From positions 5,538,543 through 5,602,542 of the forward strand of contig FN649741.1 in the NCBI GenBank assembly GCA_000310025.1: a DNA stretch of 64,000 bases, written 5' to 3'. Positions 33,201 to 53,412 of this stretch are shown here, one piece after another. Every line of letters starts with the position of its first letter. The first letter of the stretch is position 1. Origin of the DNA: Ectocarpus siliculosus. Its lineage: Eukaryota; Sar; Phaeophyceae; Ectocarpales; Ectocarpaceae. The position numbers and the translations under genes are program-made. The notes beneath the pieces were generated by a model. It searched no databases. It had not been told where the DNA came from and saw only the letters and a list, made by a program, of their open reading frames with translations.

Positions 33201-36200
33201 TCCGTCGACAGGCGGTGGAACCAGGTGTTCCGGGGGAGCGTACACAGCAGCGGCGAGACCTAGGTCTTGCAACAAGGAGAGGGCAAGCGCCGGCTGGGCC
33301 ATCTAGAAGGGAGATCAGACGGGGGGAGACACCGGCAGTCGGGGAGGGTCGGCGTACGATTGGCAGGGGGTGGTTGGTCAGGCGAAGGAGCTTTCACAAC
33401 GATTTGTCCTGTGTGAGGAAAAGGATACAAAGCACAAAAGTCGACCTTTCATGATGCGAGAATGCCTCCTGAGGTACTCACAGCCTTGCACAAGCGGCCG
33501 ACACAACCGCCAAACGAGAAAACGCCCCCGTCATTCGATGGATCGCTCACCTTTCCCGTTATCATTCCGCACAGTTCCGTCCCCACCCGCTCTCGACTGA
33601 CTTTCGTGCCCAAGGCTGCCTGGATCTCGCTGTCCCGGGCCGCGGCGCGCAGATCCTAGAGTGCAACAGGAAACGATGAAGGGATCTAGGGATCAAGGGC
33701 ACGGGGCGGGTGAAAGGGGTATACTGAAACCGTACATGCCGTGGTCGTTAGACTACTTACCTCGCATCCCTACAAAGAAATGAAAAAAAAGTCAAAAATG
33801 AACGGCACGGGGGCGGGGCAATCAAAGTACTGCTGTAGGATCAATGTCAAGGCCAACGCGGGGGATTCTTGAGTGAAAACCAAGCCACAACAACTTCATC
33901 TGTCTCTCTTTCCAAGGGGGAAGTCTCTCATCCGCATCGCATCACCTATACGTACATGCAAGCCGAGGGTTTGTAGGCGATCAAACTGCGATCGTGGGGC
34001 TCTACTTCGTCCAGCTCTCTAACGGCCCGCTGAAACATCGACCAGTCGCTCGCTTTTCCAAAACGTTTCGAGAAAGAAACATCACCTCGTGCAAGGCGAA
34101 CCCGAAGCGTGCCGCAAAGCGCACCGCGCGGAGCACCCTGAGAGGGTCGTCCCGGAAGGTGATCATCGGCGACAGGGGGGTGCGGATGATGCCGTCACGA
34201 AGGTCGTCCACACCCCTACAGTATACATGTACCCGCAAAAGGCGGGAAAACGGGGGGAAACAGCGTACCCAATGGGCGGCGAACGGTGAGGTGCAAGCAG
34301 GGCAGGACAAGAACGAAGGGCATGGTCGCATAAATAGCGACGGGGAGCACCAGTTATCGCCGTACCATCACTCAAGGCGTTACGTTTGGCCGGCTAACCA
34401 GTTCGTCGCATAGAATACGCTGCCCAGAGAACATCGTACATACATTGATGAAGGACGGTGACACAGATAAGACCAGCTTTTGATCACACCTAATGACGAA
34501 GCTGTGGCGGTACTTTCCCCCACCCAAATCAAACTTCGACCTTACACCACCCAACTCCGAAACCTGTCGTCCCTCTCTGGACCTACAGTACACCCCTTCT
34601 TTCATCTCACCTCCCTGTCTTGTCTTCGACCTTCCCTTCGTTGACGTTGTAGAACAGGGCATTGAGGGTGAAATCACGGCGAAGGGCGTCTTCTTCCGCG
34701 GTACCCAACGACGCTTCAGGGATGCGACTATCTGATCTGGAGGCGAAGATAATTACGTCATAAACAAGCGGCCGCCGTGGGATAAACCGTTGTTGTTGTT
34801 GTTGTTGTTGTTGTTGTTGACATACCACGTCACCGTTCAACCGCCGAATCTGTGCCGACAGCGTTATCCACAGCGTGAGCTTTCTCTGACGCAGAAGGTA
34901 ACGTGCAAGGTGTAACGTGGACGAAACTGATGCAAAGATGCAGCCATTGAGACAGAGTCGCGTCCCTGTACCGAGCTTTCGGGTGCTGGCGACATGAGGC
35001 ACATCACCCATGCGTTCGATACAAAGCAACAGGACCATCTGGTCGGGTGCCACAAGTGTTGCCCACCACGATTGCAGAGGTATTTGATGGGGTTTTACAA
35101 GGTAACCAACCTCACAAAATGTCTTACCATCAAGCGTCGTGCCCCGCGGAGTGCGAGTAAAACCTTAGCCTAGCATGCGTTCGCCATCTAGCATAGAAGC
35201 GCCAGAGAGTGTAACGCAACGATAACACACCTGTACACCTCGGTTCGCAGGTTGACCAAGTCGACCCACACCCCCCTTATTTTCATCCGCGCAGTTTCCA
35301 GGTGCTTGGACTGCTCTGGGTTCGCCTTCGGGTAGAACGGGGCACGGGGGGGTTTGCATACGGGGGGCGATGGTCGCGCGCAGGGTCGTCCCGTCATAGG
35401 TTTCATATCGATTGCTGCTCGCGGCCAAGGGCCTTCTCTCAACCCAAGCGAAACTCAAATGTACGATACGTATGTAGCGTTCGTTTTCGTTGTCATCGCA
35501 ACTGCGCAGTTGTTGCAGGGTACTCCACTTCGGACCGAGTTCGGACGAGCAACGAGCACACAACGCCGTGCGACGGCCAAAGGGGCTCACTGGGTTCGTT
35601 CGTCCACTCCGGACACCGACACCGCGACAAGACGTGCCCTACGCTATGTTTCGACTTGAGAGCCAGCGCTCGTCTGCCTTCTGCCTTCTGCGTTCGCTCT
35701 CCGTCGTCCGATGAATCGATCAATCAGCTTCTCTCCGCCCTAACCGTCGCTACATACGGCGAGGAAGGAGCGAGGGAGAGTTGACCTCACCTCGATCACG
35801 GCAACCTTGCCCTCGTCCCGCCCCTGGGATTTCAAATAGGCGTTCACCGTCTCAGCGAACGCCACGCCGGTGCAGTTGTCGAGTGCAATATCGATGTCTT
35901 CATTCTGTGACGAAGAATACAAATTAAGCAATGCCGCGGGGAGGGTTGAGCGCTATCAAATGACGGACGGTTTGCATCCTTGGGCGATTGAAAAGCGTAT
36001 GCATAAGACAGTGCGTTGTTCGCAGCAATATGACTTCAATTTTTTTACTACATATTTTGTTTTCGTTAGTACTTGTACAGGCAGGAGCCCATACATTCCC
36101 TCACCTCGAGACCCAGGAGCTTGTCCCGCACCCAGCCCCCTGCAACTCTCACTACCGTCCCCGTTTTGGAATACTTCACAGCCTCGAGCAGCATAGCCAG

Positions 36201-36338
36201 AATGTCAGCTTCGTTCGGCTTCAGGCAGGAAACAATGTTCATCTTGAGCGTTCCTCCTACGGCGCTCTCGCCACGGCGACCATTCCTCGGTGTTAAGGCG
36301 AGTGGGCCCATGTGCTCCCGGCTGCGGTTGGCCGCCAT
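30261..36338 (-). CDS. CCA-adding enzyme, tRNA nucleotidyltransferase
   Basis: Adds the 3' CCA to tRNAs; class II nucleotidyltransferase family. Eleven exons in coding order: 36105-36338, 35791-35904, 35231-35325, 34611-34736, 34086-34215, 33551-33655, 32724-33302, 32213-32416, 31294-31644, 30785-30856, 30261-30332 (TGA). All phases agree; 693 residues. Motifs in order: RVAGGWVRDKLLG, catalytic aspartates in NEDIDIALDN, NPEQSKHLETARMKI, WVDLVNLR, DSRIPEASLGTAEEDALRRDFTLNALFYN (read in two parts), DDPLRVLRAVRFAARFGF and KVSRERVGTEL, ending in WQLEHPEGTREQC, which is typical of eukaryotic members. Exon 32724-33302 carries a low-complexity Ala/Gly/Pro insert of roughly 90 residues not expected in the family. 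The ATG at 36338 is the first in frame; no clear mitochondrial or plastid targeting peptide is visible. Identification is firm. Confidence 0.95.
34789..34819 (+). repeat. (GTT)n microsatellite in an intron
   Basis: Ten copies of GTT within the intron between exons 35231-35325 and 34611-34736 of the CCA-adding enzyme. The poly-Gln frame it creates on the minus strand is not coding. Confidence 0.95.
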
Positions 36339-37368
36339 GTCCCCGCCTGCACCAAAACCGATGGATGCAGGAAACGACGGCAACAGCAACGGATCAGTTG
36401 TGCGAGAAGCTCGTAGGCGAGAGCGAACATCTTCTGAAGAAGGCTTGGGGGACCAGACAAAAGTCGGTGTATTTAATTTCTTAAGCTTCCCTCTTGTACC
36501 GCGCAGGACGACATCAGCCGAAATTAAAAATTTGCAGGAACAAAATTGAAGACTAGGCTAATATTTAGTCTAACGGTCAAACGGCGGTGCACCCGATCGA
36601 TTACTTTTTCATGCGGTAGCAAGTGAATGACATTGCTGTAAAATAGTCTTGAATGATACTGCTGTCTAATTTACTATTTTTTCTGTTGAGCACCACGATG
36701 TTGTGGTACGTTGTGGCGTCCGCTAAGTAATCTAGGCAAGACATACAGTACAAAGCGCCACTACGACGCCTACATCTCTCATGGCATTTCCTCAAGACCT
36801 GCGGAGAGCCAAGTTACATCATGCACTTGCTGTGCACTGTGCACAGAGCACAGAGTCAGGTTGAGGGTTTTCTGCCCCCGCCGCAACTCACCTATGGAAT
36901 CGGTCCTCTGTCGCTTGGCACAGGACATCCGCTGATAATATGCTGGCCTTTTCTTACTGTCCCTCCTCCTTCTACCCTCCTCGTACTAGTGGTGCACAGC
37001 GAGAACAAGAACAGCGCCAGTGGTGCACCACTGGCCGGGCGGTGGTGTGGGTGTTACATTTTACATGCAACGAGGGGGTCCGCAGTTGGAAAGAAGCTGA
37101 CTATACCGCATAGTTTTCTACATTTTGCGGTGCTCATTGGCCCCCTATTGTACCTTTTTCGCAGTTTGTTTGTCTTGCTGCGTGGGTTAGTTTCTGTTGC
37201 CTTGGCTTTGGTGCTAGGGCGTCCTTCACACAACCGAGGAGGTTGTCGGTTGTCGTCTCAGTAGTATCCCAGAGCTCTCACTCTTCCGTGAGACGCTCCC
37301 TTTCGCATAGATTCAAAGCGACAACTTACTCCCCCCCTGTGGATCCGCGCCCCCCCTTCCTGTAAAAC
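36339..37368. promoter_or_regulatory. Divergent intergenic region between CCA enzyme and SET fusion gene
   Basis: The CCA-adding enzyme (minus) and the SET fusion gene (plus) start about 1.03 kb apart and point away from each other, so both promoters should lie here. Visible structure: a perfect 20-base palindrome at 37016-37035 and an interrupted palindrome CTGTGCActgTGCACAG near 36830-36846. Both contain TGCAC elements. No TATA box was recognised and no coding exon was seen. Confidence 0.45.
37016..37035. promoter_or_regulatory. Perfect 20-bp palindrome in divergent promoter region
   Basis: GCCAGTGGTGCACCACTGGC reads the same on both strands. It lies about 330 bases upstream of the SET fusion start codon. 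A dimeric factor site is possible; no factor can be named. Confidence 0.4.
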
Positions 37369-40300
37369 ATGGAGTATGGGGATGCGCTGGCAAACGACGA
37401 CGACGACGACGACGTGTTGATGGATAGCGAGGACGACCAAGAGTCGGACGGGAGGTGAGGATCGAAGGGCCTGGTTGGATGCTAGCAAATCCTGCGTACG
37501 TTCGTGGGTAAATCCTGTGGGCCGATCTTGCTGTCGGAGGCCCGCCACACTAACCCTACCAGTGTACATTTTGGGCACAGCGCTAATTTGCGGCGCGCAA
37601 CAGCAGGCGGATCACACACACACATCGGTGTTCCCGCCCACGCCGACACGCCAACACAGTTGTCGTGGTGGATGACGGATTGTATCCGACAAGAAGGTAC
37701 AAGGGTAGCGTGGCCCGTCCAATGAGATATCTCCGGTGAACAATACCCCACATGCCATCGAGAACGAGTCTGGCCATTTTTCACACACCAGGCCGAAAAA
37801 TGCGTCTCGCACTTTTTTGAAATTCACGACAACAGCAGCAACGCGCTCAAGAGGCTCAAGAAGTCGACAACTGCCGGCGACAACTCTGACAACGGCATGG
37901 ACATTGACCGCAGCAGGCACAAGAGCAGCAGGAGAGAACTAGAAGAAGACGTGGGCAGCAACAGATCGTCAGGGCGAAGGAGCGGCGAGGTCGGCCACCA
38001 TAAGAACGCCGAGCACGGTGGTGGTGACGCCAACACCAACAGCGGCGGCGGCTACTCCCGCCGTCACGCCGCATCCCCGTCCTCCAGTGCCTCCGCCAAC
38101 TACAACAACAACGGCAGGAGAAAGGGAAGGGACTCGAGGGGATCCTCCTCGTCCCGGTCCCGATCCCCATCGCGGTCCCGGTCTCGTTCGAACTCGCCTT
38201 CAGATCGCCCGCCGCCTCCACCGCCGCGGCCGCCGCCGCCGCCGCCACCTCCGTCCTCGTCCTCCCTCTTCGATCGCCTTAAGGCCGACTGGGGTAGGGA
38301 AAGTTGGCAGGACTTCGAGCTCTTGCAGAACAATGTGCCCGGGCCGGGAACCAAGGGGCATGGAGGTCCAGGAGCCGTGGGCGGTAAATGTGAGCGTCAT
38401 ACTGCGCGTGGAGCTTGATCTCTGATTGCACAGCAACCAGTCGGTGCCAGGCGGAGTGACCCAGAGCGCCACAATGCACCAGCAGGGGGTGCTGCCGTGG
38501 TGTTGAGCGGTTGATATTTTCGCTGCTGCACGTATGGTGGGGCGAGCCAGTCGTGTGGAGTCGTCTTGTTGGCGATGTGTACTCACTTAGTCACTGCTGC
38601 CTGTAGGAAGGCTACGGTTGAATCAGCAGGCTTGTTGGGGCATAGAGGCGTCATCGTCTTTTTAATGATGAGGAGTGACGGGTGCTGCATGTTCACCAAC
38701 AAAATGCGTAGGACCGGTGTGCCGTGGTGCTTTTGGCACTGCAGTTGGCACTACATAGTTGCCCTTCGAAGGGGGAAACTTGATCTGGAGCCCCATTATC
38801 GGTCATATCGCGGTACACACTACTGTACTCCACTTCGGACAGCATACGTCCAGATACATGCAGCGTGCCCCACCACCGTCATCAGTCTGTCGACACATGT
38901 TTGCATATGCGCTGCTGAGGGTGTATCGCTCATTTTCTTGCCCGTGTGCTTCCCGCGTGCAATTGCTCGCCGACTGGCAAACGAACGAAAAGCTGACATG
39001 GGCGGGGAGCTTGAAGAGCACGAGTGCAATTGCACGCCGGTCGGCGGAGACCCGAACGCCCCAACATGCTACGACGACCAGTGCCACAACTACGTTACCA
39101 TGCAGGAGTGCAGGAAAGACCAGTGTCACCGTGGCTGCCGAAATCAGCGCATCCAGGTGTGTTGAATGTACACACAATAGACAAGGCGGCATTGTGTTAC
39201 GCCCCCCCTACTTGTACTCCCGTTTGATTTCCACAAGCCCCCCCGGTGTGGTAAGCATACTACTTTTTGGAGGAATGTGCATCTGCGAGCACGTTGCGGT
39301 GTATGCCGACAAGGAACCAACTTGTTTTCAGAGTGAGTATCGGGATGTATGATGTTGGGTGATTATCGACGCTAACGAGGTATGTCGTTGTAGCTTTCCC
39401 CGTTGGTTGATCGTTACCCCAAATGGACATGATTATCACGATAGAGCACGACAGCAGCAGCACGGACAGGAGTGCCGTGGCAGGGTGCACTGTCCCAGGG
39501 CAAGCGCTTGGTACACCACAAGGAAGGACATAGTTGCGTTCGTTGACACAGGATGTCTTCGCTTGTTTGCTGGCCACGACTCGCAACTTGCCCCGTGTAA
39601 TCTCTCCTTGCCCCTCGCGGTCTCTGTGGGCGGCCCCGTGTATCATTCGATCTGCTCTCCGTCACAAACCCCAAGAAACGGGAGAACGCACAGGTAGAGG
39701 TGTTCAAGGCCGATGGCAAGGGGATGGGCCTCAAGGTGGTCGAGCCGGTGTCCAAAGGACAGTTCATCGCCGAGTACGTCGGAGAGGTGAGAGGTTGCTA
39801 CTGCCTCGAAACAGAAGCACCAGAACAAACAGTCCGCGTATCCGCGGCTCGTTGTTAGACAAGTGAAGGAATGCACGTGTGCGTGTGTGTGTGTTCTTTT
39901 GCGTGGGGGGGGTGGTAGCGGTACTCTGCGTGACGCGGTGCCAATGACGTGATAGTGTACGAAGAGTTCTGGAATGTACTGCTGCACTGTTCCAACCGCG
40001 CTGGATGGCACGCACGCCGACAAGCAACTGCGGTACGTACGTAAGGGAAGGAGGCCCGTGTCTCTTTCTTTGCTGTTTACAGTCGAAGTCGTATTGTACA
40101 GTAAGGAGCTGATTTGCTGTTGCTGTTGATCCAGCTGTACACCCGTCACTCTGGGCAGTGAGGCGCCTAAGTGGTAGGTAGGTAGGTTGGCAGGCACGGC
40201 TTTGTACTGCTACTGCTGTTTGACACGTGTGAACGGGCGGTTCTTTTGTCAATGTTCCACGTGTTTGCCGCCTGTGCATGTGCAGATCATCACGAGGAAG

Positions 40301-43300
40301 GAGCTCAACAAGCGCATGATTTCCAGCGCAGGCACACGGAAGCTATATATGATGCAGCTCGGTGATGACACGTGAGGATGTTTCCGACTGATGTGGTTCC
40401 GCGATGCCCCCTATTTATGACGCCGTGTCTGTGTCGACCCTTATGATTTTTTGGTTCCATGTGTTGATTGTTGACGCCTCACGTGGCTACGAGCAAAATC
40501 CTCCTGCTAGGTCGAAGAGGTTGGACGAAAACAAGTGAGCTCTTGGCGGGAGAAATCGACTTGTGCGTCGGTTTGGTCGAAAGTCTGAGCCCGCGACGCC
40601 TTGTCTCACAACCGCAGTGTCAACGCCATCTGTGTCATGTTGCATGTGCATGTCGTCCAGGTACCTCGACGCCAAGAGGAAGGGAGGCATCGCTCGGTTC
40701 GTGAATCATTCGTGTGAACCCACCTGCCGTCTGGAACAGTGGACGGCCATGGGCCAGCCGCGCTGCGCGGTGTTCTCGCTGCGAGCCATGAAGGCGGGAG
40801 AGGTGTGTTCATCGTTCAGATTCCGGTCCTCATGGATATGCTTGGATGACGCTGTGTGGTTGGGACCACGTCCTGCTTTTGTAGGAGAACTTATCTCATT
40901 CTGGCAAGACGGTAGGCATATGTACCTGTGTTGGTGGCAGTTTTTTGGTCGTGCTTGAGCGTGGTAGCGTGTGTGAATGTTTTACCTAGACTGTCTGTCT
41001 TTCTGGCATACAGAATCGTCGTAACAACTTGACTGGCCGTCGCGTGGCTTTTTCTTCCCCTTGGTTCATTTTTTGGGCTGATGCGCTGCTGTAGGTAGCG
41101 TCAGATTCGACGTAGGCTTAGACGGTAGGGTTAAGCTATCCTGTTGTTCACGGCTTGAACATGCCCTCGAATAGAACCAACGTTCTTAGGTCAAAATAGT
41201 ACGGTTGTGTTAGAGACATCTGGAGACCCCATCCTCTAAACACATTACCTTAGGCGTGTCAACTATCCTGTGCATCTATATTCTACGAGACATTTTTATA
41301 TCATGTTGAAGGCACTTGCTACGAGACGATGTTGCGGTTTGTGGCGTCAAGTCGGAGATTGTCGCACCTGAGTAGGAACAGACGGAACATATACCAGTAC
41401 CAATGCCCGTTTCGGACGTTTTCTGCACGGCACAGGAGTTGTCGTTCGACTATCAGTGGGAGGCACACCATCTCCGAGAAAACACCAAGTGTCTATGTGG
41501 CTCGCCGCAATGCAGGTGAAGACGAATACATATGTACCATCATTGTCATGTTATCGCGCGTCTAGCTTCTGGGTGTGTTGGGTACCAGAGCCGCGCTAGT
41601 GGGCAGAGAGCGAAGCACACAGACGAGACGGACCGATTGGTTCCTGAATCGTGTTCGATTCTGTTATCTCGATCCCGTTTATTTTCGGCTCGGGACAGAA
41701 CCAGCGTTTTACGGGGGAACTTTCCACACGCATCCCTGCTCTTTGTTACCTGTCCAACAGCAATCGAGGCGCCGTACCGATTGTGCACGGTGCAAATACC
41801 AAATAACCTACTCGGCGTTCTCTGTGCACACAGTTTGCAGGCGTCCGCGTGATAAGTTACCGCCCTAATTTTTACGCATGTTGACCCATGTGCACTTAAC
41901 GAGAGCTTGGCGGTACTGCTTTTTTTTTCCCGTTTCCGCGAAATGCATCGCTCCACACTTCTCTCGAATAGGGGAACGATCGAGGTGATTAACCCTAACG
42001 CAGACCCCAACGTGGAGTCTGGCGGAGGTCCGTTTGCCCGCGGTCGTGCCCCGGCTTCGGCGATGGGCGTCTGGCGCACGCCCAAGAACGACGAGTACGC
42101 TACCCCGGAGGCACTTGTTGGCCGAAAAGTACGGGTGTACTTCGACGGGGACTGCACCTACTTCGAGGCGCAGGTATGCATATGCATGCATATGTGCGGT
42201 GCAACCTTACCTACCCGTTGGTATCTTGGTTGGTGTGTGATGTTGTCAATCGTTTTTTTGTGGGTTCGCGGATGAGCTCCGTCATTCGCGCTTAGCAGCA
42301 GTAGCAGCAGCAGGGATGAAGTTGTTCACCCATACGGACGTTACCGTTTCCAGACGCTACAGTAGTTGACGCGGCAGAGGGACAAACCCGCTCCAATTTT
42401 ACGCCAGCCATCTTCTGTTGTTGAATAGTACGCCGATGTCGGCGTGTTGTGTAGTGTTTGCTCGAGTGGCACTCAAGGCTTCCCTCAACCCTGCCGGCCC
42501 GCGCGCGTGCCGAGCTTCGGCGCGCCTGGTGTGCTCCTCTTGCTGCTCTTGCTGCCGTAAATCGTCGACCTTTCTACTTGGAAGAATTGCACCGTCCGTT
42601 CCCGTCACATCCGAAGCGGAACCCACCAACAATGTGACACCACCATGCCATCAGGTGAAACGGTACAAGCCAGACACGAAGACGCACATGCTCCTCTATG
42701 CGGGGGAAGGAGAGAGGGAGCTTGATGAATTGGAAGAGGACCTCATTGGCGTTCAAGGGAAGATACAGGGTATCGACAAGTGGCAGATTTGGGAGCAAAC
42801 CGATAGGTGAGGGGGGCACAGCGGTGTTTGAATGGGCTCACAGGGGGATTCGGGGCGGCCAAGGATCGTTCGTGTAGCCTCTTGTAACTCTTGCCAAGCA
42901 AATATCCCGACCATTCTGCGAGTCTGGCACTCCGTGCGTGCCCAATATTAATATTCGTATCTCCCATTGACCAATGAAAAACGATGTGTGGAACCCTGCG
43001 GCAGCATCCGTAGCAACCCCGCCAATAGAGAGAGAGTACCATGGGCGTGTTAATGTGGAGAGAGTACGCAGGGTATGTGCACAGTTTCTCCTCAACACCG
43101 GTGGTCTGTATCATCAAGTTGAGACCACACGGGGCCTATCGCACTATCGCACCACTATTACTTGGCACAGGGTGCTCAAAATCAAGAAGAAGGAACAGGC
43201 TGGCGATATTTCCTTGGGGCCTGAGGGCTCCTCGTCTGGCTCCCGAAGGCAAGTCAAGGTGTATCTACCAGGCACTGCTGTACACACCATTTCATGTTTG

Positions 43301-44249
43301 CCAGCTACGTACGCACCCAAGTAACGCTTCACCACGCATCTCTTTGTGACCGCGTGTGGGGCTGTCAACGTCAACGTCAACGTCAAGATCAAGATCAATC
43401 TCAATCTCAATCCAATGAATGAAGGAGGAAGGTTGGGCAGGCCTGCTCGTTCCTATCGATTGTCGTGTCGTTTTGTCGCGTTTTCATGTTCTTGTGCCAT
43501 ACATAACAGGTGCTCTGGGCCTAAGGCCATTTGATGTTCATTTCGATTCCTCCACGCTGCTACAGCTGCCCAGATGTCGAACAAGTCGAGGAAGGCTTCC
43601 AATTCAGTATCCGTACTGCCGGTACAATTATGTATCCGCAAAAAACGGCCGCATTTAGTACCTGAAGCGAAACGGCGCCGCCCTTCCCCAAGAACACGCC
43701 TTCCCTCCACCATTGATCTTTGCAGGACGAATGGGAATGTGAATGGCCAACACCCCTACGGCGGCCCGCAACAAGGTGGCGACGGGAGACACTTCGCCAG
43801 CCGTTTCGGACCACCGCTGCCCCAAATGCAGCAAATGCAGCCTGGCATGGGCATGGGGATGGGCATGGGGCACGGAACGGGGAGTTTCTCGGGGATGATG
43901 GGGATGGGGGGGCCGCCGATGCCTCCGCGTGCCCCCCCTCCGCCTCCTCCGCCGCCACCGCCGCCGCAGCCGGTTGGGCCGCGGGTTGCGGAGGAGTTCA
44001 TGGTGCCTTTGAAGGTGCCCCCGCCGTGCCGTACAAGTGCCTGTGTGTTTGGCGCTGCTACCGTTCTTAAACGGTTGTGTTTTTTTGCCACGCAATTTTC
44101 AGACGCTGCAAGCTTTGCACCTTGTAATTTTGTGAAGCACGAAACCATTTACCAGGTATTGTTGTACAAGCGGGTTTATATTTTTGCCAAGAACCGGTTT
44201 GTCAGGAGGTGCCGGGCACACCGTTTGCACCGCTCATTGTCTCGTGTCG

Positions 44250-44300
<51 letters not shown>

Positions 44301-47300
44301 TATGTTGCACGTCCTTCTTTTATACAGGACACCCCACTGGTGTACGGCGGGTCTGAGTTAGTAGAAAGGATCAAGACACGAACAGCGGTGTACCTCCTGG
44401 AGCTTGTCGACGAGGAAGATGCGCGCGCCAAACAGTGCCCCGCCGGCCAGAGACTTCTTCGGGTTGCTGGGGGGCGGGACCAGGTGAGCCAGCAGACAGG
44501 AACATATAACTTGTTTTTTTTCGATACAGGGACCAGCCGAGCGCCTTGTGCGTCACTTGCCGGTTTTCAAGGCACAATGAGGGGTTTGTTGGTGAGGTTT
44601 GGTATTGCTTATTTATAACCACTGACAGCAGGTTGCGATTTTGGTTTCAAACTCTGCCTGGTGACTGACTGGACAGGCGTGTGCTGGATATATGCCACTT
44701 TCCTTTTTTTTTCCCGCGACAATGCCTCGTCTTCCACCGCAGGTGCTGTTGTGCCGCAACGTCTGAAATATTTCCCAATACATGTTTGGCGAAAATAGGG
44801 ACCACCGCTACGATGAATCTATATGCTTAACATCAGCAGACAACCTGAAAAGTTCTTCTTAATGCTGGGCGCACCCCCCCCCCCCCGGTTCTGGCCATAC
44901 CCCCTGCTTGTGATCCTGTTGTGTGCGAAGGTTAGTGCGGCGGTTGATATACTCCGCGCCGAGGTGGTGTCGATGAGATCCTTCGAGGACTGGCTGGCCG
45001 GTAAGCGACACCGCGAGGCGCAGGAAGAGGCCGAGACCAGGGACCTAGAGGACGCCGCTAAGGCGCAGGTCGACCGTCCAAGACTTCGCTCCTGCATCGG
45101 CAGCGGTGAGAGCGAGGGAGAGAGGGGGACGTTGCTCGCTGGTTTCTGTACGATTACGTGCTAGAACTCCCTGAACGAAACCGATTTTGCGCAGCTCCAT
45201 TGAACTTTGTGATGGCTCCGCGTATTCCAACGCGGCTCTGATGCCTGCCGGGTGATACATGTCTCAGCCGACCACACGCCCCCGGGACTACGAGTGCTGT
45301 ACGCACGTCTCGCATGCTGTTTTTGTGTTGAGTTTGTGTCCTCTCCTCTCCAACTACAATACATGGATCGATATGTCCTTCCGCCCCGTTCCCCAACAGA
45401 CTGGCACTGCTTCTCGAAGGAGGTGGTAGCGCAGATAGCGGCGAACAAGGTCGTTGCAGATCTTCGCCGCAACGCTCTCCACGTCGTTCGGCAGGTGTCA
45501 GAGAGTGGCTCGGGTACAGCAGTCAACTCGGCGCCGCTAATCTGCCATGCGGTGCGTGCCGCCAAGGAAGTAGCTCGAGCTGAGGTGTAGACGTTGTGTA
45601 GGTGCTGGGAGCGAGGGCGGTAAATTTTCTCTGTTTTGTGAAATTCTTGACATGGCTCGGCATTATGGCACGGCACGACCGATTCACGACAAAATCTCCC
45701 TGAGAACCTCTCTGAAAATGCGTTACACACGAACGCCATCGAGAGTCTTGAGCAGCGCTTTCATATCAACTTCTGTACGAATCCGGGAGCCTTCGAAATA
45801 CCCGAAGCCTATGCATGCAACAGCACGCAACAGGGCCGGCTCAACTGGAGACCCCTTTCTGCCTTTGTCTTGTAAAAACACGGTGAAAACAGGGCATACT
45901 TCTTCACCGCTACCTGGCCGTGCTCTGCGTGTCCACGCCCGCGGAAGCCGCAAGCACCGCCACGAAGAGCACGGCACCCTCCTCGGACACCGGCGGCGCC
46001 AATGGCACCTATGGCAGCGGCGGCAGCAGCAAGAGGCGCCAAAGCGGCGGCAGCAGCAAGGGCAGCAAGGACGGCAAAGACATGACCCACGCAGCAAACG
46101 GTAGTGGTGGCACTGCCGCCACCAACGGTTTCAGCACCGCCACCACAGGCACCGCCGCTTCGGCCAGCGGGGGGCGAGCTCGCCTGGAGACAAACTTCTA
46201 CGTTCTCGCGACGGCGTGCCTGCTGCTGGCGAACAAGTCCCTCCGGGCCCGTGTAGGCGTGGCGCGTCCCCGAAGAAGAGAGGAGCTCCTGAGGGCTGCC
46301 TACGGGGTGCAGTTCCGCGGGAGGGCGGTGGAGAAGGGGACGGCGGAGGTGGTGAAGTGGGAAGGCAAGCTGGCCGCGGCGGAGCTAGAAGTGATGGTGG
46401 CGCTGGGGTTCGACTTGCACCTGGCGGATCCGTTCGAGGCGCTCGACCAACAGCGCCGGCAGCAGGTGACCGGGCGGTGCTGACGTAGCAGGTTTTGGTG
46501 GTGGGGGGGGGGTGGGATGCTGTGCAGTTTGTTGCGGGTGTTGCAGGCGAGGTTAGCTGCTCCTTGATGTCGTACAAATTGTTGTCCCCGAAATATTTCT
46601 CTGTCGTTTTAAGCTTGAGGGCGAAACGAGTGACAGCAGTGCCGCGCAGTTGAAACAGACTTGTATTGTTCTGTGCTAGAAATCTCTCTATTCTATCTCC
46701 GCTCACTCCTCCCTAACGTGTCGTCGTTGCTGGGGCCATGGCTTTCGTCTTGACGCAGTTGATCACTGCCGAGTGCCATGAGAAGACAAGATCGCTTGTG
46801 CTGGAATCGGTCACGCAAGGGTGCTCGGCGTGGCTGCGGTTCGAGCCGGATGTGGTGGCGTTGTCGACCTTGCTGCTTGCCATCTGGAGTACTTCCAACC
46901 AGCATGATCTCCTCAACAAGGTACGTCTCACGTCAACCGTTCGTATTCTGTTGCGACACGCACAATGTTTTGACGCGATTGACGTGTTTTGCTTGCGTTG
47001 TCGTATTCGGTTGGCAAAGACCGCACCTTCACCACACGGGTCCAGCGAAAGAACGAAGTGTTCGCGTTTTTTCAACCTTAAGCCATCTCGGTGTGCCCGA
47101 TTCCGACTGAACAACCAGGCTCAGCAGTTCTCGGTGAATGCTGGGGGCACGTGGCCGGCAGTGCTGGCTTGCACTCAGTCCCTGGCGAGGTCCCTACCGT
47201 CCCTGGGAGACAAGGTCGATGCCGGACCGGACGGTGTGGCCGCTACGTTGAGGCAGGTGCCGACCGTCGACCCATCGCAGTACCCCGAGTTCGAGAGTCC

Positions 47301-50300
47301 GCTAATGGCGGCGAAGGAACGGCTGAGCCAGAGGCGGCGCGCGGAGGACGCTGTGGCTGATAAGCAGGTATGCTAGAGGGTCACGGGGAGGGATGCACCC
47401 TCGCTTTTCATTCCGCAAGTCATGTACATGTACATCCGGTAGCTGGTGCGATTGTTGTCCGTTTTTTTTCCATGATGAGTGATGGGGGGCCCTCTTCCAT
47501 GGCGGGTGCCTCGAGAGCGATCACTGACAGTTGTCCGTCCTGTCGGGATGGCGGTCTCCTGCTGCTACGGAAGATGGATGGGACAAGCAAGCCTAGGTCA
47601 AGCGAGCCAAGCACCTACCCCTCTGAGGCCTTGTTTGCGCACATCCTATGCATGCATGCATTCATGTTGTGAGTGCCTCCTCCTTCCCACGTACCCATCG
47701 CTCGCCCGCTGCTTGCTTGGCGACGCGTCTGCTGTGTGTCGTCGTGGTGCTTCAGGTGTGGACCACCGACCTGCTGATGATGAGAAAGGCCCAGGATAGG
47801 GCAGGGCTGCACGGCGGGCTTGGAGGTTTGCAGGGCATGAAGGGGCTGGCGGGGTTCGGAGCCACGCTGGCGTCCAACAAGTTCGTTCGCGCGGCCATAC
47901 GGGAAGATGTGCGTTGGTCCATCCCTCAACCCATCCCTCTTGTCCCTCTTCTTTTTATTGGTTCTGGGTTGTCGGGCAGCACCATCCATCCGCCACGTAT
48001 CTGTGTAGCTAGAGTGTGCGTGACCGAGGGCAGCCAAGTTGGAAACAATCACGTACTCGACCGCAGTGGGGTTTCATGCACGAGCTCTTTTCTGTGGTTC
48101 TGCTGCTCTGATGCCTACTTGCAGACAGTCAATTCACTCCTTGCCTGTAGAATGTGCACCTTATCTCACAGCAGTTGCCTTGGCATGTTGGAAGCAAGAC
48201 ACCCAACGGAAGAACAGCACTTGGCAAACCATCCAGTGCTTCTATTCTCAGCAGCAGGTTCGATACTCTTTGTTGTTCGTTTTCGACCACGGCCCGCACC
48301 ACCCATTTTTTGCGACGCCAGACCCTCAAGGCCGCCGGGTTGAGTTGTCTCCTGCCTGCTCTAGACGCCTGGAAAGGGTCTACCGTGAAAGGACCGCTGC
48401 CGGGAGTAGACGAGGGACGGACCATGGAGATATATTTGCAGAGGTGGCCGGCGGATAAGAAGGTGCGATTTTGCTCTGTCGTGCTCTCGATTGGCTGCAT
48501 TTGATCATTCAGCACTTTTTTTTTTATTGGTACGTAGGTAGTGTGCACGAGTTGTGGACGAGTTGTGGACACTCTTGGCGTACTGTATGTATGTACATGC
48601 ATTGCTGTTTCGTGGAGGCTGGGACTTCGTTGTGCTCATGGTTGGAGAAATGTGGTCCATGTGTTCGCATCCAACTTCTCCGTTTCGTGTATGTGCACGC
48701 GGTGTATTATTTGGTATTGAGTACGCACGGGACTTTCACTATAGAGCACCCGAACGCTGTAGTACTGTACCCGTTGCTTTCACCTTGGGCAGTATCATGT
48801 TGTTGTCGGCGTCTTTGGGCGCATGCACCGCATGGTCCCCGCCTGTGACCTCTTGTATGTGCGCGTTTGTCGTCTTGCCCTGCCTTTCCTGGGTCCTCCC
48901 TTCCTTCCTTCCACGTAGGAGATGGACATGGCCAGCGGCTTCAGCTCGTCGGGAGTGGCTGAACTGGCGCTGTTTCAAGAGATGCACTCCTACAGCACCA
49001 ACACTAGCGGACACAGCACCCTTCTCGTGCCCTTCGCGGTGGTGAAGGGAACAGGTACAGCAGTACTGCGTGCCCGCTTTTCTGCACGTCCCTCCTAGAC
49101 ATGATGACGATGGGTAGCACGAAGCGGTATGATATGGCATGTCTCGCCAAAGACACGAAGGTCCAAGTTGTTGCTGCAAGGGTGCCGAGCATGAACCGTT
49201 GTGGCGTGCCAGGGTGCCGGCATGTGTCCTAGCTTATAGTTCGACCGTGTGCCTCTTCGCCCGTGCAGTTTTTGTTTTTGTTTTTAGGCGCATCCTGTGT
49301 GATAACGCCTGTTTCTCCGTCGACGTCTTTGGCATTGCATTCTCTTTTGTCAGGGCTCAAGCCACCGGCGAAGATCGGAGCACCAGGGTCTTCCAAGTCC
49401 TCGTCTGACCGGAACGCCGCCGGAAAGCTCGCCAAAGGTGCTGGAGCTGCTGCCGAAGGCGTACCCCTCGCGGCGGACGAGATAACGACGGCCGTGATAG
49501 GCATGGACCCTCTGGGCATCGCCGGCGTGCCGATGTCGCTGGGTTTGCAGCAAGGGGCCGACGCGGATCCGGCTGCCAGCGGAGGTGGTGAGGGGGACGG
49601 GGAGAAGGCGAGCCCTTCGAAGGTGTGTGAACGCTTGGTTGGTTGATTCAAGACCAGGTTGGAGTTTGGTCTTTCTTCCGGTGCGATGTTGTGTTCGGCG
49701 AGTGGCTTCAAAAGGCGGCTGTTTTGGCGGTAAGGCAGGGATGTGCTCGCTTTTTCGTTGAGTCAGTCGACACTTCGCGTCGTGTACCACCTGCGGCTGG
49801 CTTTTTGTCGTCGCATTGGGGGCATGAGAGCGTGGACAAGCCTGTGCGCGTCTTATTACAGTGCTGCACCCAGCCGCCAGTTACAAAAACCATCCTCCGC
49901 CTCGCACCGACGGCTCTTTGTCCCAGTTCCCTCGGTTCACCAGTATGCTCACTAGTGGCGGCCGATGCCCCCCTACTCGCGTGTCTGTCTCTCGCTGTCT
50001 TGTGATTGGTTTTCCATCCGACCGTTTCCAAGATACCGGATGAGCTCCTCAAGCCGAGCTACTTGCTTCTCGAGCCTGTTCGCTACACGCTCGCGGAGAT
50101 CTTGAGGCTCTGTCGCCGCCCGATGGTTCTCCCTGGACCCCTAGTGCGATCCATGCTGCAAGACCTTTTGGGTGCGGTTGCTCTCTGCCATGATCGCAAC
50201 GTCGTCATCAAATCCTTGGACGCAGAAAAGGTGAGGATGGTACAACTTAATAGTCGTCGTTATGACGTAGTACCTCGGTGCACGTCACGATGCACATCAC

Positions 50301-53300
50301 TCGATTTTTAAGCCTCACTGCTGCGTTGTGCATTCAATCCGTTGACAGCTGAAAGTAGACGTGACGTGCGATTGACGCGCCTCATGGCACCGAATCTTCG
50401 GTGGGCCAATGCTGTTCACAGTTCCGCCCTCTGCTCGTTGCAGGGGTGCTTTGTACGGACGACAGCACCATCGTGACTGCCGAGAGGAACCACACTGATT
50501 GGCGCGATTGGCTTGACTTTGTCGTTGCCGGTATCCCGTAAGTTCCTCTCACCAGGCGGTGTTTTTATCGGACATTTCGTGACGTGCTTGTGTGAGTGAC
50601 ACTTGTCTTGTGTGTTGATGCATGCAATCTGTCTGGTTTTGTCCCAGGTGTATCTCAGCGTATCAGGCTGCCTGAAGCTGGGATGCTTGGCCCAGGCCAT
50701 GATGGTGGCCCCCAAGGACGCAGCGACTGCACCCAACGATGGGATGAATGGCATTGATGAAGACGTGGAAGGAGAGGTGGACATGGAAGTTGAGGTGAGG
50801 CAAGAGGAGAAAGCTCACCACGAATGACAAACGATGCGTTCGGCAATGCGCACATGTTGCGGGATGTAGCAGGGCCGCGTGTCCTTGTATCTACTTCGCA
50901 ACGGTATTTACTTGTCTGGTGATCCTGACATCTTGACACTCCGTATTTGTCCTCGCCGTCCCTTCCCCCCTGGTGTGGACGTCTCAGGAGACCCCGGCCG
51001 GCCGTAAGGCGGCGCACAGAGAAGGGAAGCTGCGGATGAAGCAGGAAAAGCTGCAAAGAGAGAACGCCTGTAAAAAGGTGACGTCTAGGTTGTTTGTATC
51101 GACGGTGTCGCTTGCGTTTGTGACGAATTGGCAGCGTTTCGCACATGTAGGCAGGCGTGCCCGCGGTGAACATAGGCGGTCAGCTTCTGGTCACACCGCA
51201 GACCGGTAACGTTGGCCACCTCCCTCCCCCTTTCCCGTGAAGTGATGGCGCGCAGTGTTAAAAGAATACATATTCGTAAACGAATTCCCACAACGATTTG
51301 TAACGCGTCTCTGTGTCTCTCGGTTACTCTCGGTTACACCCTTGCGAAAAGGCTGTTGCGGCTGTGACGAAAGACGGCGAGCCGGCTAAGACCGTGCTAT
51401 GGGGCATGGCTCCAGAGGTTATCGTGGACCAGAAGCATCCCCATGGTCCTGCAACGGACATCTGGGCAGTGGGGTGAGATTGCCCCCCCGAGGCTGGCTC
51501 TGTTTCCCGTCAAGTTAGGCGCCCATGGGCATCAATCGCTCACGTAGTGATGAAGTTGTTTTGAGGTCACTTGGTCGGCGGCGTGTGGACAAGACAACGG
51601 GCTTAGGTTGGTGTGGCGGTCTCTGTTCTAGAAGATAACGCAATGTCGGCGGTCACGTTGGCGGCGGTGGCGGACAATCAATCCTGTTCGGATCGCTCCA
51701 CATACGCTTCGCGCCCGGGCTCTCATTTGTCGTGTGGCGCACCTTGACATGATCGAACCGGACCCTTTCGCACTCCCCGGGCGGTGTGCACCACCCGGCT
51801 CTTCATTCGGCAGGTGCCTCGCTGCGCAGCTTGCCCTGGGTAAACCCATATTCGGCGGTCGTACGCGCAAGCAGCAACTAGAGTACGTCTTCAAGTGCTG
51901 TGGTTCTCCCGGCCAGGGCCGGTGGCCGGAGGGGAACAAAGCCCCCCTATACCGGCACTTGCGGCCCGTGGACAAGGAGGGCAAGAGCCTCCACTTCAAA
52001 CCCCGCCTCGACAAGGTACGGCAGCGTTGGTTCTCCGCAGTCTGTAGGCATGTCTCACGTCTCATGTCTCCTCAATGTAGAGTGTACACCAGTCTAGCTG
52101 GAATGACTTGTTTCACGTTGCTTTGACTCAGCCGCAGCAGCTCTGGAAGGCGAACCGATGCCTGTCTGGAAGAAACTTGTGTTTTTTATCGAGCTCGTGG
52201 CCGCTAGGATTGCGCCCCCCCCCCCCCCGTCTTCTATCGTCTTCTGTTTCATACCCTCACGCGTGCAACCACCAAACGATGACCTTCTTTCTTCGCTCGT
52301 CTCGTTTGTCTCCGCCATGCAATCATGGAAAATCATGTAAACTGAAACCGAAGGTTCTTGCGGCGGAGGGGAACAAAGGCGTTCCCCTCGACCCAGCGCT
52401 GGCGGACTTGTTGCAAGGTCTCCTCAAGCTCGACTCGCGACATCGCTTGAGTGCAAGGGACGCCCTGGCGAGCCCTTACTTTGCGCCCAGGCATGGGCAG
52501 CATGACGAAAGGGTGAGAGCACTGAGGAGTCCCGGTTGGATTTATTTTTGTGTTGGACTTGCCGCTGCAGAGCTGTACAGATGATCCTGCACACAACCCG
52601 GAGAAAATGCTGGTAAAGCTGCTGGCTCTGCCACCGATCGATTTCCTATCGTGTGTCAACCTAGTAACCTCGTCAATGTGTATCCCATTCATGGCCTCCC
52701 TCTCGATCCTTGCCACATGACATGACGTGACACGGGCGTGCAGCTGGATGCGTGGGTTACCTTGCGGGGTGACCTAGATAAGGTGCAGATGGGAGTGGCT
52801 ACGCCGGATCAGCTCCGCGGCACGTTCGCCGCCGCCAATGCGCCCACGGGGCCTCCACCTCCCCCGCCCCCGCCCAGAGGTCTCGCCGATGCTCCTCCCC
52901 CGCCGCTTTCACCTAGAGGCGGCCCTTCAGGACACCCTAGCCAGCACGGCCGTCCACAGAGGGATAGGAAGGAGGAGGAGCGTGCGGGCCGCCGCTCGCA
53001 CGCCGACAAGGCACGCGAAAGCAGGCGTGCGCGAGGAAGGGGCGTCGCGACCCCTTCCCCGCCACGCGAGGGCCTCCACATCTCGGTACAGCTTCCCCTC
53101 AAGCCTGATCCACCAGGAGGGTATGGCGCCGTGTCGGTAGAGAGGACTGGCAGAGCGGGGCGGGCAGATCGGGGACGCCTCGAGGATCACGTCAAAACCC
53201 GTAGCCCAAGCCCCAGGGGGGGTAGGAGGCGGAGTCCGGCGAACGGCAGGAGGGAGCGGGAGCGGGAGTGGGAGCGGGAGCGGGAGCGGGAACGCGAACG

Positions 53301-53412
53301 AAGGGGAAGAAAAAGGGACAGAGAGAGGGAAAGGGGTGTAACGAGGTCGCGCGAGCGCGAGTGGCAGGGCGGTGAACGGTCGGGCAGGGACCCGCGCCGT
53401 GGTAGTCGTTGA
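37369..53412 (+). CDS. SET-Tudor-KH-cyclin-CDK-like pseudokinase fusion protein
   Basis: Exons: 37369-37454, 37836-38383, 38993-39156, 39694-39786, 40286-40371, 40661-40802, 41436-41515, 41972-42173, 42655-42806, 43726-44014, 44328-44483, 44931-45105, 45400-45584, 45893-46465, 46759-46920, 47119-47367, 47756-47908 (or 47912), 48365-48462, 48919-49054, 49354-49622, 50033-50230, 50648-50794, 50988-51077, 51352-51473, 51814-52015, 52354-52512, 52571-52612, 52744-53412 (TGA). Codon phase carries across every junction; only 47908/48365 is doubtful (a donor at 47912 restores phase; a tiny missed exon is also possible). Product about 1876 residues, starting MEYGDALANDDDDDD. It begins with an acidic and RS/Pro-rich region, then AWS-SET-postSET, Tudor-like, Pro/Met-rich linker, KH-like, cyclin fold, CDK-like pseudokinase, and a Pro- then Arg/Glu-rich tail. 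Separate entries describe the modules. Inferred to act in the nucleus on chromatin during transcription. Two adjacent genes are possible but no stop, polyadenylation region or new start is seen between modules. Confidence 0.8.
38993..41515 (+). other. AWS-SET-postSET module, Set2-class lysine methyltransferase
   Basis: Exon 38993-39156 encodes an AWS zinc-binding domain (ECNCTPVGG ... CYDDQCHNY ... QECRKDQCHRGCRNQRIQ). The SET domain follows over 39694-40802 with GMGLKVVEPVSKGQFIAEYVGE, then IARFVNHSCEPTC with the NHSC cofactor-binding motif, RCAVFSLRAMKAGE and ELSFDYQW. The post-SET cysteines are in TKCLCGSPQCR (41436-41515). Residues about 218-402 of the product. The AWS-SET-postSET order and these motifs are those of the SET2/NSD/ASH1 class, which methylates H3K36. 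All visible catalytic elements are intact, so this half should be active. No SRI or WW domain, typical of Set2, was found downstream. Confidence 0.93.
41972..42806 (+). other. Tudor-like domain
   Basis: Exons 41972-42173 and 42655-42806 encode LVGRKVRVYFDGDCTYFEAQ joined to VKRYKPDTKTHMLLYAGEGE and then ELDELEEDLI, the strand pattern of Tudor domains (as in ATX- and PDS5-type proteins) that read methyl-lysine or methyl-arginine. Aromatic residues suitable for a binding cage (Tyr, Phe, Tyr) are present. The intron splits the domain in phase 0. Call based on pattern; no alignment was run. Confidence 0.65.
43726..45105 (+). other. Pro/Met-rich linker and KH-like domain
   Basis: Exon 43726-44014 encodes a Met-Gly and polyproline linker ending EEFMVPLK. 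This joins exon 44328-44483 (DTPLVYGGSELVERIKTRTA ... GQRLLRVAGGRDQ) and 44931 onward (VSAAVDILRAEV). Together they follow the KH fold order: VP-start, Gly loop, helix ERIKTRT, strand, strand with LLRVAGG and final helix. The nucleic-acid-binding GxxG loop is degenerate (VYGGSE). The rest of exon 44931-45105 is a charged helix (EDWLAGKRHREAQEEAETRD). A CT microsatellite at 44253-44296 forms the pyrimidine tract of the acceptor at 44327. Confidence 0.55.
44253..44296 (+). repeat. (CT)n microsatellite doubling as a splice pyrimidine tract
   Basis: Twenty-two copies of CT end about 31 bases before the acceptor of exon 44328-44483. Length variation here could affect splicing of the KH-coding exon. 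Confidence 0.9.
45400..46920 (+). other. Cyclin fold, transcription-type (C/K/L/T-like)
   Basis: Exon 45400-45584 opens with DWHCFSKEVV, matching the W-x-F-(S/T)-K-E start of transcriptional cyclins. It continues across the intron into GILLHRYLAV (the family's TA-x-x-x-x-HR-(Y/F) helix). After a low-complexity Gly/Ser/Lys insert of about 85 residues come LETNFYVLATACLLLANKS and AAAELEVMVALGFDLHLADPFEAL, and exon 46759-46920 adds the next helices, including WLRFEPDVVALSTLLLAIWS, the equivalent of the cyclin K/T W-EP-IIAVA helix. Both halves of the box are recognisable. The long insert between two helices of the first repeat is unusual. Confidence 0.85.
48365..52612 (+). other. CDK-family pseudokinase domain
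   Basis: Kinase fold landmarks appear in order. There is an N-lobe strand EIYLQRWPADKK, a PSTAIRE-like helix GFSSSGVAELALFQEM (closest by eye to the SMSACRE helix of CDK8 type), then VRSMLQDLLGAVALCHDRN, a catalytic-loop position VVIKSLDAEK, an activation-segment start CLKLGCLAQAM, LWGMAPEVIV with the APE motif, TDIWAVGCLAAQLALGKPIF, and LLKLDSRHRLSARDALASPYF. Catalytic residues are gone: the ATP lysine of VAIK is Gln, HRDLKPEN reads IKSLDAEK, DFG reads CLA, and the Gly loop is unrecognisable. The C-lobe structural motifs are well kept. The domain is interrupted by a low-complexity insert (49354-49622). By family knowledge this cannot be an ordinary kinase; a scaffold or cyclin-bound allosteric role is likely. 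Confidence 0.82.
52744..53412 (+). other. Pro-rich and Arg/Glu-repeat C-terminal tail
   Basis: The last exon (223 codons including stop) encodes LDAWVTLRGDLDKVQMGV, then polyproline, Ser/Pro/Arg-rich sequence and a RERERERE tract ending DPRRGSR. Such RS/RE tails occur in splicing- and transcription-linked kinases such as CDK11- and CDK12-type proteins and in cyclin L (family knowledge). It mirrors the RS-rich region at the N terminus (37836-38383). Confidence 0.8.

Follow-up and report, generated by a model that had tools for sequence, protein, structure and literature searches.

An Ectocarpus gene predicted to join an H3K36-type methyltransferase to a transcription-type cyclin and a CDK-like pseudokinase, with fused relatives in diatoms

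In yeast and animals, the methylation of histone H3 at lysine 36 (H3K36) is linked to transcription via the SRI domain of Set2 and the polymerase-tail kinases. Here we analyze a gene at positions 37369 to 53412 of a 64,000-nucleotide stretch of the genome of the brown alga Ectocarpus siliculosus (contig FN649741.1, positions 5,538,543 to 5,602,542, hereafter the window; the source assembly comprises 189 Mb in 492 contigs). Its product is predicted to be an H3K36-type methyltransferase whose single chain also includes a Tudor-like domain, a cyclin of the T/L/K type and a pseudokinase resembling a cyclin-dependent kinase (CDK), a fusion that looks like an almost undescribed kind of chromatin enzyme.

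Probably related proteins have been described from oomycetes and diatoms, the former in a Phytophthora kinome paper that we take to be by Judelson and Ah-Fong, 2010. According to the passages on the protein in that 2010 paper, PITG_14137 of Phytophthora infestans is an inactive CDK-like kinase joined to an N-terminal histone-lysine methyltransferase, and the fusion is held further by P. ramorum and P. sojae and not by other species (PMC3019232). Compared by description, it shares these two parts with the Ectocarpus product and differs in that the same passages mention neither a cyclin nor a Tudor domain; it is probably the oomycete version of the fusion that we find in the brown alga and in diatoms. 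The paper also treats oomycete and ciliate CDKs that contain a cyclin domain of their own and are reported as missing from two diatoms (PMC3019232); these likewise have in one protein a cyclin and a CDK-like part with a substituted catalytic aspartate, but whose cyclin is C-terminal of the kinase, whose aspartate is changed to asparagine and for which, in the passages concerned, no SET domain is mentioned. In diatoms, “SETD2 homologs” were reported to have conserved motifs IV-VII beyond AWS-SET-PS that were left unexplained (PMC10421102, Plants 2023); the main text of that paper does not identify these motifs and uses the words “cyclin,” “kinase” and “Tudor” 0 times. Going by that text, the diatom homologs are probably members of the family described here. 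Within the open-licence literature of PubMed Central we found no description of the full architecture, and what appears new relative to the 2010 oomycete mention is the cyclin, the Tudor-like part and the spread over brown algae and diatoms. The sequence-only reading of this stretch, which knew of no described protein with such an architecture, stands within this scope for these additions but not for the joining of a methyltransferase to an inactive CDK-like kinase.

The gene and its principal parts are as follows.

37369 to 53412, + strand: whole gene model, from ATG at 37369 to TGA at 53410-53412, 28 exons and 1898 residues, built by splicing and comparison with relatives
39016 to 39156, + strand: AWS region (EHECNC...RNQRIQ), its seven cysteines unchanged across a family alignment of five sequences; Pfam AWS at an expect value (E) of 0.077, below the cut-off
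39676 to 41515, + strand: SET and post-SET, exons 4-7, with NHSC at 40704-40715 and SFDYQW at 41442-41459; Pfam SET 5.9e-20
42066 to 42806, + strand: Tudor-like domain, exons 8-9; four-sequence profile against PDB 7de9_A, 2.3e-7
43991 to 44996, + strand: weak KH-like stretch, exons 11-13; KH_1 0.018 in one of eight members
45105 to 47208, + strand: cyclin domain, exons 13/14-17, of which exon 15 contains an insert rich in Ser, Gly and Thr; identified by family profile
48322 to 52512, + strand: CDK-like pseudokinase, exons 19-27

The first splice of the 28 exons, among them 43726-44014, 45893-46465 and 52354-52512, gave 1877 residues with one terminal stop and all 27 junctions in phase. Moving the end of exon 2 to 38389 and that of exon 14 to 45551, by comparison with the Ectocarpus proteins P0003 and P0004, lengthened the product to 1898 residues. 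The exon number given by the sequence-only reading is retained, its product length of 1876 residues is corrected, and the one junction that it took to break phase is accounted for by the intron at 43249-43725 being of the GC-AG class (GC donor directly after 43248), the other 26 introns being GT-AG.

A protein search with residues 200-1690 of the joined product (7980 candidates scored) identified at least eight proteins at E ≤ 1e-3. Among the matches listed, the closest relatives were the Ectocarpus entries, with 92 and 94% identity over 62 and 59% of the query. Two brown-algal-type proteins from EukProt, P0001 (1744 residues) and P0002 (1827 residues), span the entire query region (77 and 76% identity), each with both SET and Pkinase domains; P0005 (2218 residues) also has the two domains but is distantly related, and the remaining three matches (P0006-P0008) are ordinary SET proteins. 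The alignments were gap-free at 27 of 27 exon junctions in P0002 and 26 of 27 in P0001, and at 16 of 16 and 15 of 16 of the junctions covered by the partial Ectocarpus proteins P0004 and P0003, respectively, which argues for one gene rather than a chance joining. It might be objected that two adjoining genes have been mistakenly joined, a SET/Tudor gene stopping at 45162-45164 and a cyclin-kinase gene whose start would be the ATG at 45363. That stop is present in the sequence, the ATG shares the frame of exon 14 (MDRYVLPPRSPTDWHCFSKEVV), and half-length models occur among the matches; however, P0001-P0004 are all continuous over this junction (CIGSDWHCFSKEVV) and complete fused transcripts exist in MMETSP. 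We consider a two-gene arrangement highly improbable and, given the orthologues and the complete transcripts, reject it.

A second search, with P0005 as query, returned at least 155 proteins, the best 120 of which provide the following figures. SET (PF00856) and kinase (PF00069) domains occur together in 115 of the 120 and a cyclin domain (PF00134) in 13. These relatives are diatom or unlabelled metagenomic sequences; among the matches listed, the named organisms are nearly always diatoms (genera Cyclotella, Thalassiosira, Nitzschia, Discostella, Cyclostephanos, and Skeletonema), and P0012, P0020, P0040, P0070, and P0124 are MMETSP transcripts labelled complete. Since P0001 and P0002 cover the whole query and 115 of the 120 relatives carry SET and kinase together, sequence comparison indicates that the fusion is real and old. 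The single gene proposed by the sequence-only reading, and its suggestion that other proteomes be searched for SET, cyclin and kinase in one protein, were both borne out by brown-algal-type and diatom relatives, in which the two halves are fused rather than always separate genes.

Strict motif patterns placed SET, cyclin and pseudokinase in that order in 99 of 128 family proteins; 15 of the other 29 have SET and pseudokinase in order without the strict cyclin pattern. The strict cyclin and pseudokinase patterns missed P0036, yet Pfam gives SET and Pkinase in it, and only the SET pattern was missed in P0121 and P0124, in both of which Pfam gives SET. Eleven family proteins lack one half: the kinase half is missing in P0003 and P0004 (both Ectocarpus partials), P0037, and P0039, and P0034, P0035, P0038, and P0128-P0131 have no SET in Pfam. 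The nine from outside Ectocarpus weigh against our reading, but each aligns over most of its length inside a fused relative at 31-97% identity (e.g., P0037 of Skeletonema marinoi with the complete transcript P0012 at 97%, P0128 with P0068 at 91%, and P0131 with P0053 at 33%), and for this reason the half-length matches are likely partial models. A third protein search (9 matches) found no stand-alone cyclin-pseudokinase outside the family among the matches listed, which were six family members and three ordinary kinases. One protein, P0016, is labelled Alexandrium tamarense (a dinoflagellate) and is the sole entry so labelled; it shares 66% identity with a diatom-type sequence across the full query region and is probably diatom contamination of the Alexandrium data set. 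The four diatom-type members P0005, P0040, P0041, and P0112 share a C-terminal tail (KRxA.L..A ... DDxLYDxxDxL), in place of which P0002 and the window protein have an Arg/Glu-rich tail.

The sequence-only reading had given the domain order as AWS-SET-postSET, Tudor-like, KH-like, cyclin and kinase. Hidden Markov model searches of the predicted product, which it had proposed, recovered SET and Pkinase (2e-15), with AWS and a PTM-type Tudor (0.091) below the cut-off; the SET, cyclin and CDK-like parts of that order are upheld, the Tudor-like part falls short of the Pfam cut-off and the KH-like part is weak. The AWS-SET-postSET unit has its catalytic motifs, as judged from the Pfam SET match, the aligned AWS cysteines and the match of the whole unit to SETD2, and would be an H3K36-type methyltransferase of the Set2/ASH1 class, consistent with the earlier assignment. 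In searches of PDB with the single window sequence, SETD2 came first (3.7e-40) and ASH1L followed (5.6e-39). The family profile weighs against a closer assignment, as it puts ASH1L (180.5 bits) over SETD2 (176.2 bits) and the enzyme may consequently not be a SETD2 orthologue. It is conceivable on these scores that we have here an ASH1/NSD-like dimethyltransferase to which a module has been added, rather than a co-transcriptional Set2 enzyme, but we regard this as unlikely, given the order of the single-sequence matches and the lack of a second close relative in the genome: an AWS-SET query recovered five exons of the gene itself and then three matches 33-45% identical over 45-60 residues, so that no close paralogue is seen in the assembly. 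A search of the genome with the AWS family gave no match at E 0.1 and missed the gene's own AWS as well, and is thus insensitive. Relative to Set2/SETD2, the brown-algal enzyme has the same AWS-SET-postSET order and motifs and finds in SETD2 its best single-sequence PDB match, but it is without an SRI match and has the Tudor-like, cyclin and pseudo-CDK parts added.

The Tudor-like domain did not reach the Pfam cut-off, the best value being 0.0023 for PTM_DIR17_Tudor, and the KH-like stretch gave no PDB match better than E 1. For the cyclin there was no Pfam match in the window protein; in the five relatives scanned, Cyclin_N was over the cut-off in two (P0040 and P0041) and under it in P0005, whereas P0002 and P0112 gave no cyclin match. 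When the cyclin family profile was compared with PDB, all 18 matches at E ≤ 0.1 were cyclins T1/T2, L1/L2, and K (cyclin T1 at 1.5e-6), which points to a transcription-type, T/L/K-like cyclin. Other cyclins in the genome gave 12 exon matches. The predicted structure of P0003, which runs from SET to cyclin, was poor (pLDDT, the predicted local distance difference test, 50; pTM, the predicted template modeling score, 0.33) and its match list was filled by SET chains, so that the fold comparison covers the SET part.

The landmarks of the kinase part are listed below.

48436 to 48462, + strand: LQRWPADKK replacing the VAIK strand, with no lysine at the aligned columns (strand placed by eye)
48937 to 48966, + strand: GFSSSGVAEL, region of the alpha-C (cyclin-binding) helix, its Glu invariant in a 71-row alignment (helix placed by eye)
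50189 to 50230, + strand: HDRNVVIKSLDAEK, the HRD catalytic loop in degenerate form (Asp to Ser), from the alignment
50675 to 50698, + strand: KLGCLAQA, degenerate DFG (Asp absent), from the alignment
51406 to 51817, + strand: APE and DIWAVGC of the kinase C-lobe, both kept (Pfam and alignment), an intron splitting DIWAVGC

The Pkinase match in the window protein is restricted to the C-lobe of the profile (positions 162-263). Aligning the window model with 124 relatives (120-121 rows retained per motif), we found serine (51), threonine (42), asparagine (19), alanine (5), tyrosine (2), lysine (1), and valine (1) at the HRD aspartate column and aspartate in 0 of 121 rows; the DFG segment has aspartate in 0 of 121 rows, and the three beta-3 columns at which the VAIK lysine might stand, as placed by eye, have lysine in 0 of 120. 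The HMMER alignment to CDK3 pairs “CHSHRVIHRDLKPQNLL” with “CHsnhivlrsldaeqil,” and the “DF” of DFG falls outside the family profile. These residues class the kinase part as a pseudokinase, not a working CDK; with no aligned row retaining the lysine or either catalytic aspartate, phosphorylation of the polymerase tail by it is not to be expected. The idea of an active built-in cyclin-CDK acting on that tail could call on the CDK fold of a relative, the presence of a cyclin and the kept APE and DxW, but with all three catalytic landmarks missing throughout it is highly improbable and is contradicted by the sequence, and the built-in pair of the earlier reading is not supported as a working one. 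The CDK12/13-cyclin K and CDK9-cyclin T pairs differ in the same respect, those kinases being active, and also in having the cyclin as a separate protein. The fold itself appears to be under constraint, since all 120 rows retain the Trp-Pro of LQRWP and the alpha-C Glu is invariant; the corresponding diatom stretch, GFSPAALQE, presumably resembles the PITALRE/PITAIRE helix of CDK9/12. The predicted fold of one relative is a CDK fold, nearest CDK12/13 and tied with CDK2, a result that covers the kinase part, as kinase chains filled the match list. Two points tell against a specific likeness to CDK12/13: the Z score does not separate CDK12/13 from CDK2, and in profile searches by sequence the top places go to CDK3, cdc2 homologues and Pho85.

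No SRI domain was matched by Pfam up to E 1 in the window protein, P0002, P0005, P0040, P0041, or P0112, nor does the precomputed Pfam annotation of the 120 listed relatives of P0005 include one, in agreement with the earlier statement that the domain is missing. Against giving this absence much weight, it rests on Pfam scans, and a whole-genome SRI search found none but had no positive control, as the control genomes gave none either.

What the module does in place of catalysis is a matter on which we tentatively favor docking, as a possibility a little short of probable. The cyclin and pseudo-CDK would form a non-catalytic module within the methyltransferase chain, and this module may dock the enzyme on a partner of elongating RNA polymerase II, be it the polymerase tail, the Paf1 complex or another elongation factor. 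It would thereby do the recruiting job of SRI in animal and yeast Set2, such that H3K36 methylation tracks transcription, while the Tudor-like domain may read a nearby histone mark. Of the earlier proposal that a cyclin-CDK pair takes the place of SRI and ties the enzyme to transcription, the T/L/K cyclin and the CDK12/13-like fold in relatives are favorable, whereas the kinase is dead and docking on the polymerase or Paf1 is a step that we infer, which weighs against this account. Pseudokinases frequently serve as allosteric scaffolds, and L-type cyclins are linked to splicing too. It is feasible, if rather less probable, that the module is an internal regulator or scaffold (autoinhibiting SET, binding RNA or splicing factors, or recruiting another, active CDK) and not a polymerase recruiter; the RS- and RE-rich ends and weak KH-like stretch of the brown-algal protein could fit RNA or splicing partners. 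Set against such a role, the cyclin is kin to T, L, and K and the fold is nearest CDK12/13, all of them linked to transcription.

In the portions of the two reports concerned, trimethylated H3K36 (H3K36me3) lies over the bodies of expressed genes in Ectocarpus (PMC7784034) and over genic regions in Phaeodactylum (PMC10421102), which suggests that some coupling of this mark to transcription exists in these organisms and lends the docking reading indirect support. A search for polymerase-tail heptads gave 0 exact pattern matches in the genome and four 44%-identical matches to a heptad query. The DNA downstream of the RPB1 linker is N, hiding the C-terminal repeats of polymerase II, and the heptad search consequently says nothing on the polymerase tail; this, too, is to be set against the docking reading.

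As to origin, it is possible though doubtful that an early stramenopile H3K36 methyltransferase captured a transcription-type CDK-cyclin pair in cis, that the kinase then died, and that the pair became a permanent docking module replacing the binding of SRI to the phosphorylated polymerase tail. If so, H3K36 methylation in diatoms and brown algae (perhaps also oomycetes) would be coupled to transcription by a rule unlike that of animals, plants and fungi. Ecologically dominant algae would have an enzyme without detectable SRI whose chain also contains a dead CDK-cyclin pair of the transcription type, offering a concrete, testable case of a pseudokinase in place of a phospho-reader.

Other features of the gene and the adjoining genes are as follows.

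37836 to 38389, + strand: exon 2, N-terminal part rich in proline and in Ser/Arg (RS-like), with an RS stretch at 38134-38190
43171 to 43248, + strand: exon 10, with the GC donor; P0004 and P0002 are continuous over its junction, P0003 and P0001 are not
52744 to 53412, + strand: last exon, Pro-rich and then Arg/Glu/Ser-rich tail, no SRI match (Pfam and model)
34600 to 36560, - strand: divergent neighbor directly upstream, matching PF01743 (Poly A polymerase head domain) at 7.1e-10
55949 to 56331, - strand: convergent neighbor, a stretch of which weakly resembles STAS (PF01740 0.0057, below the cut-off)

A candidate mini-exon at 44103-44123 was omitted from the model, and P0001-P0004 agree with its omission. 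The convergent neighbor is perhaps a sulfate-transporter-type protein, and the divergent one is likely a CCA-adding tRNA nucleotidyltransferase.

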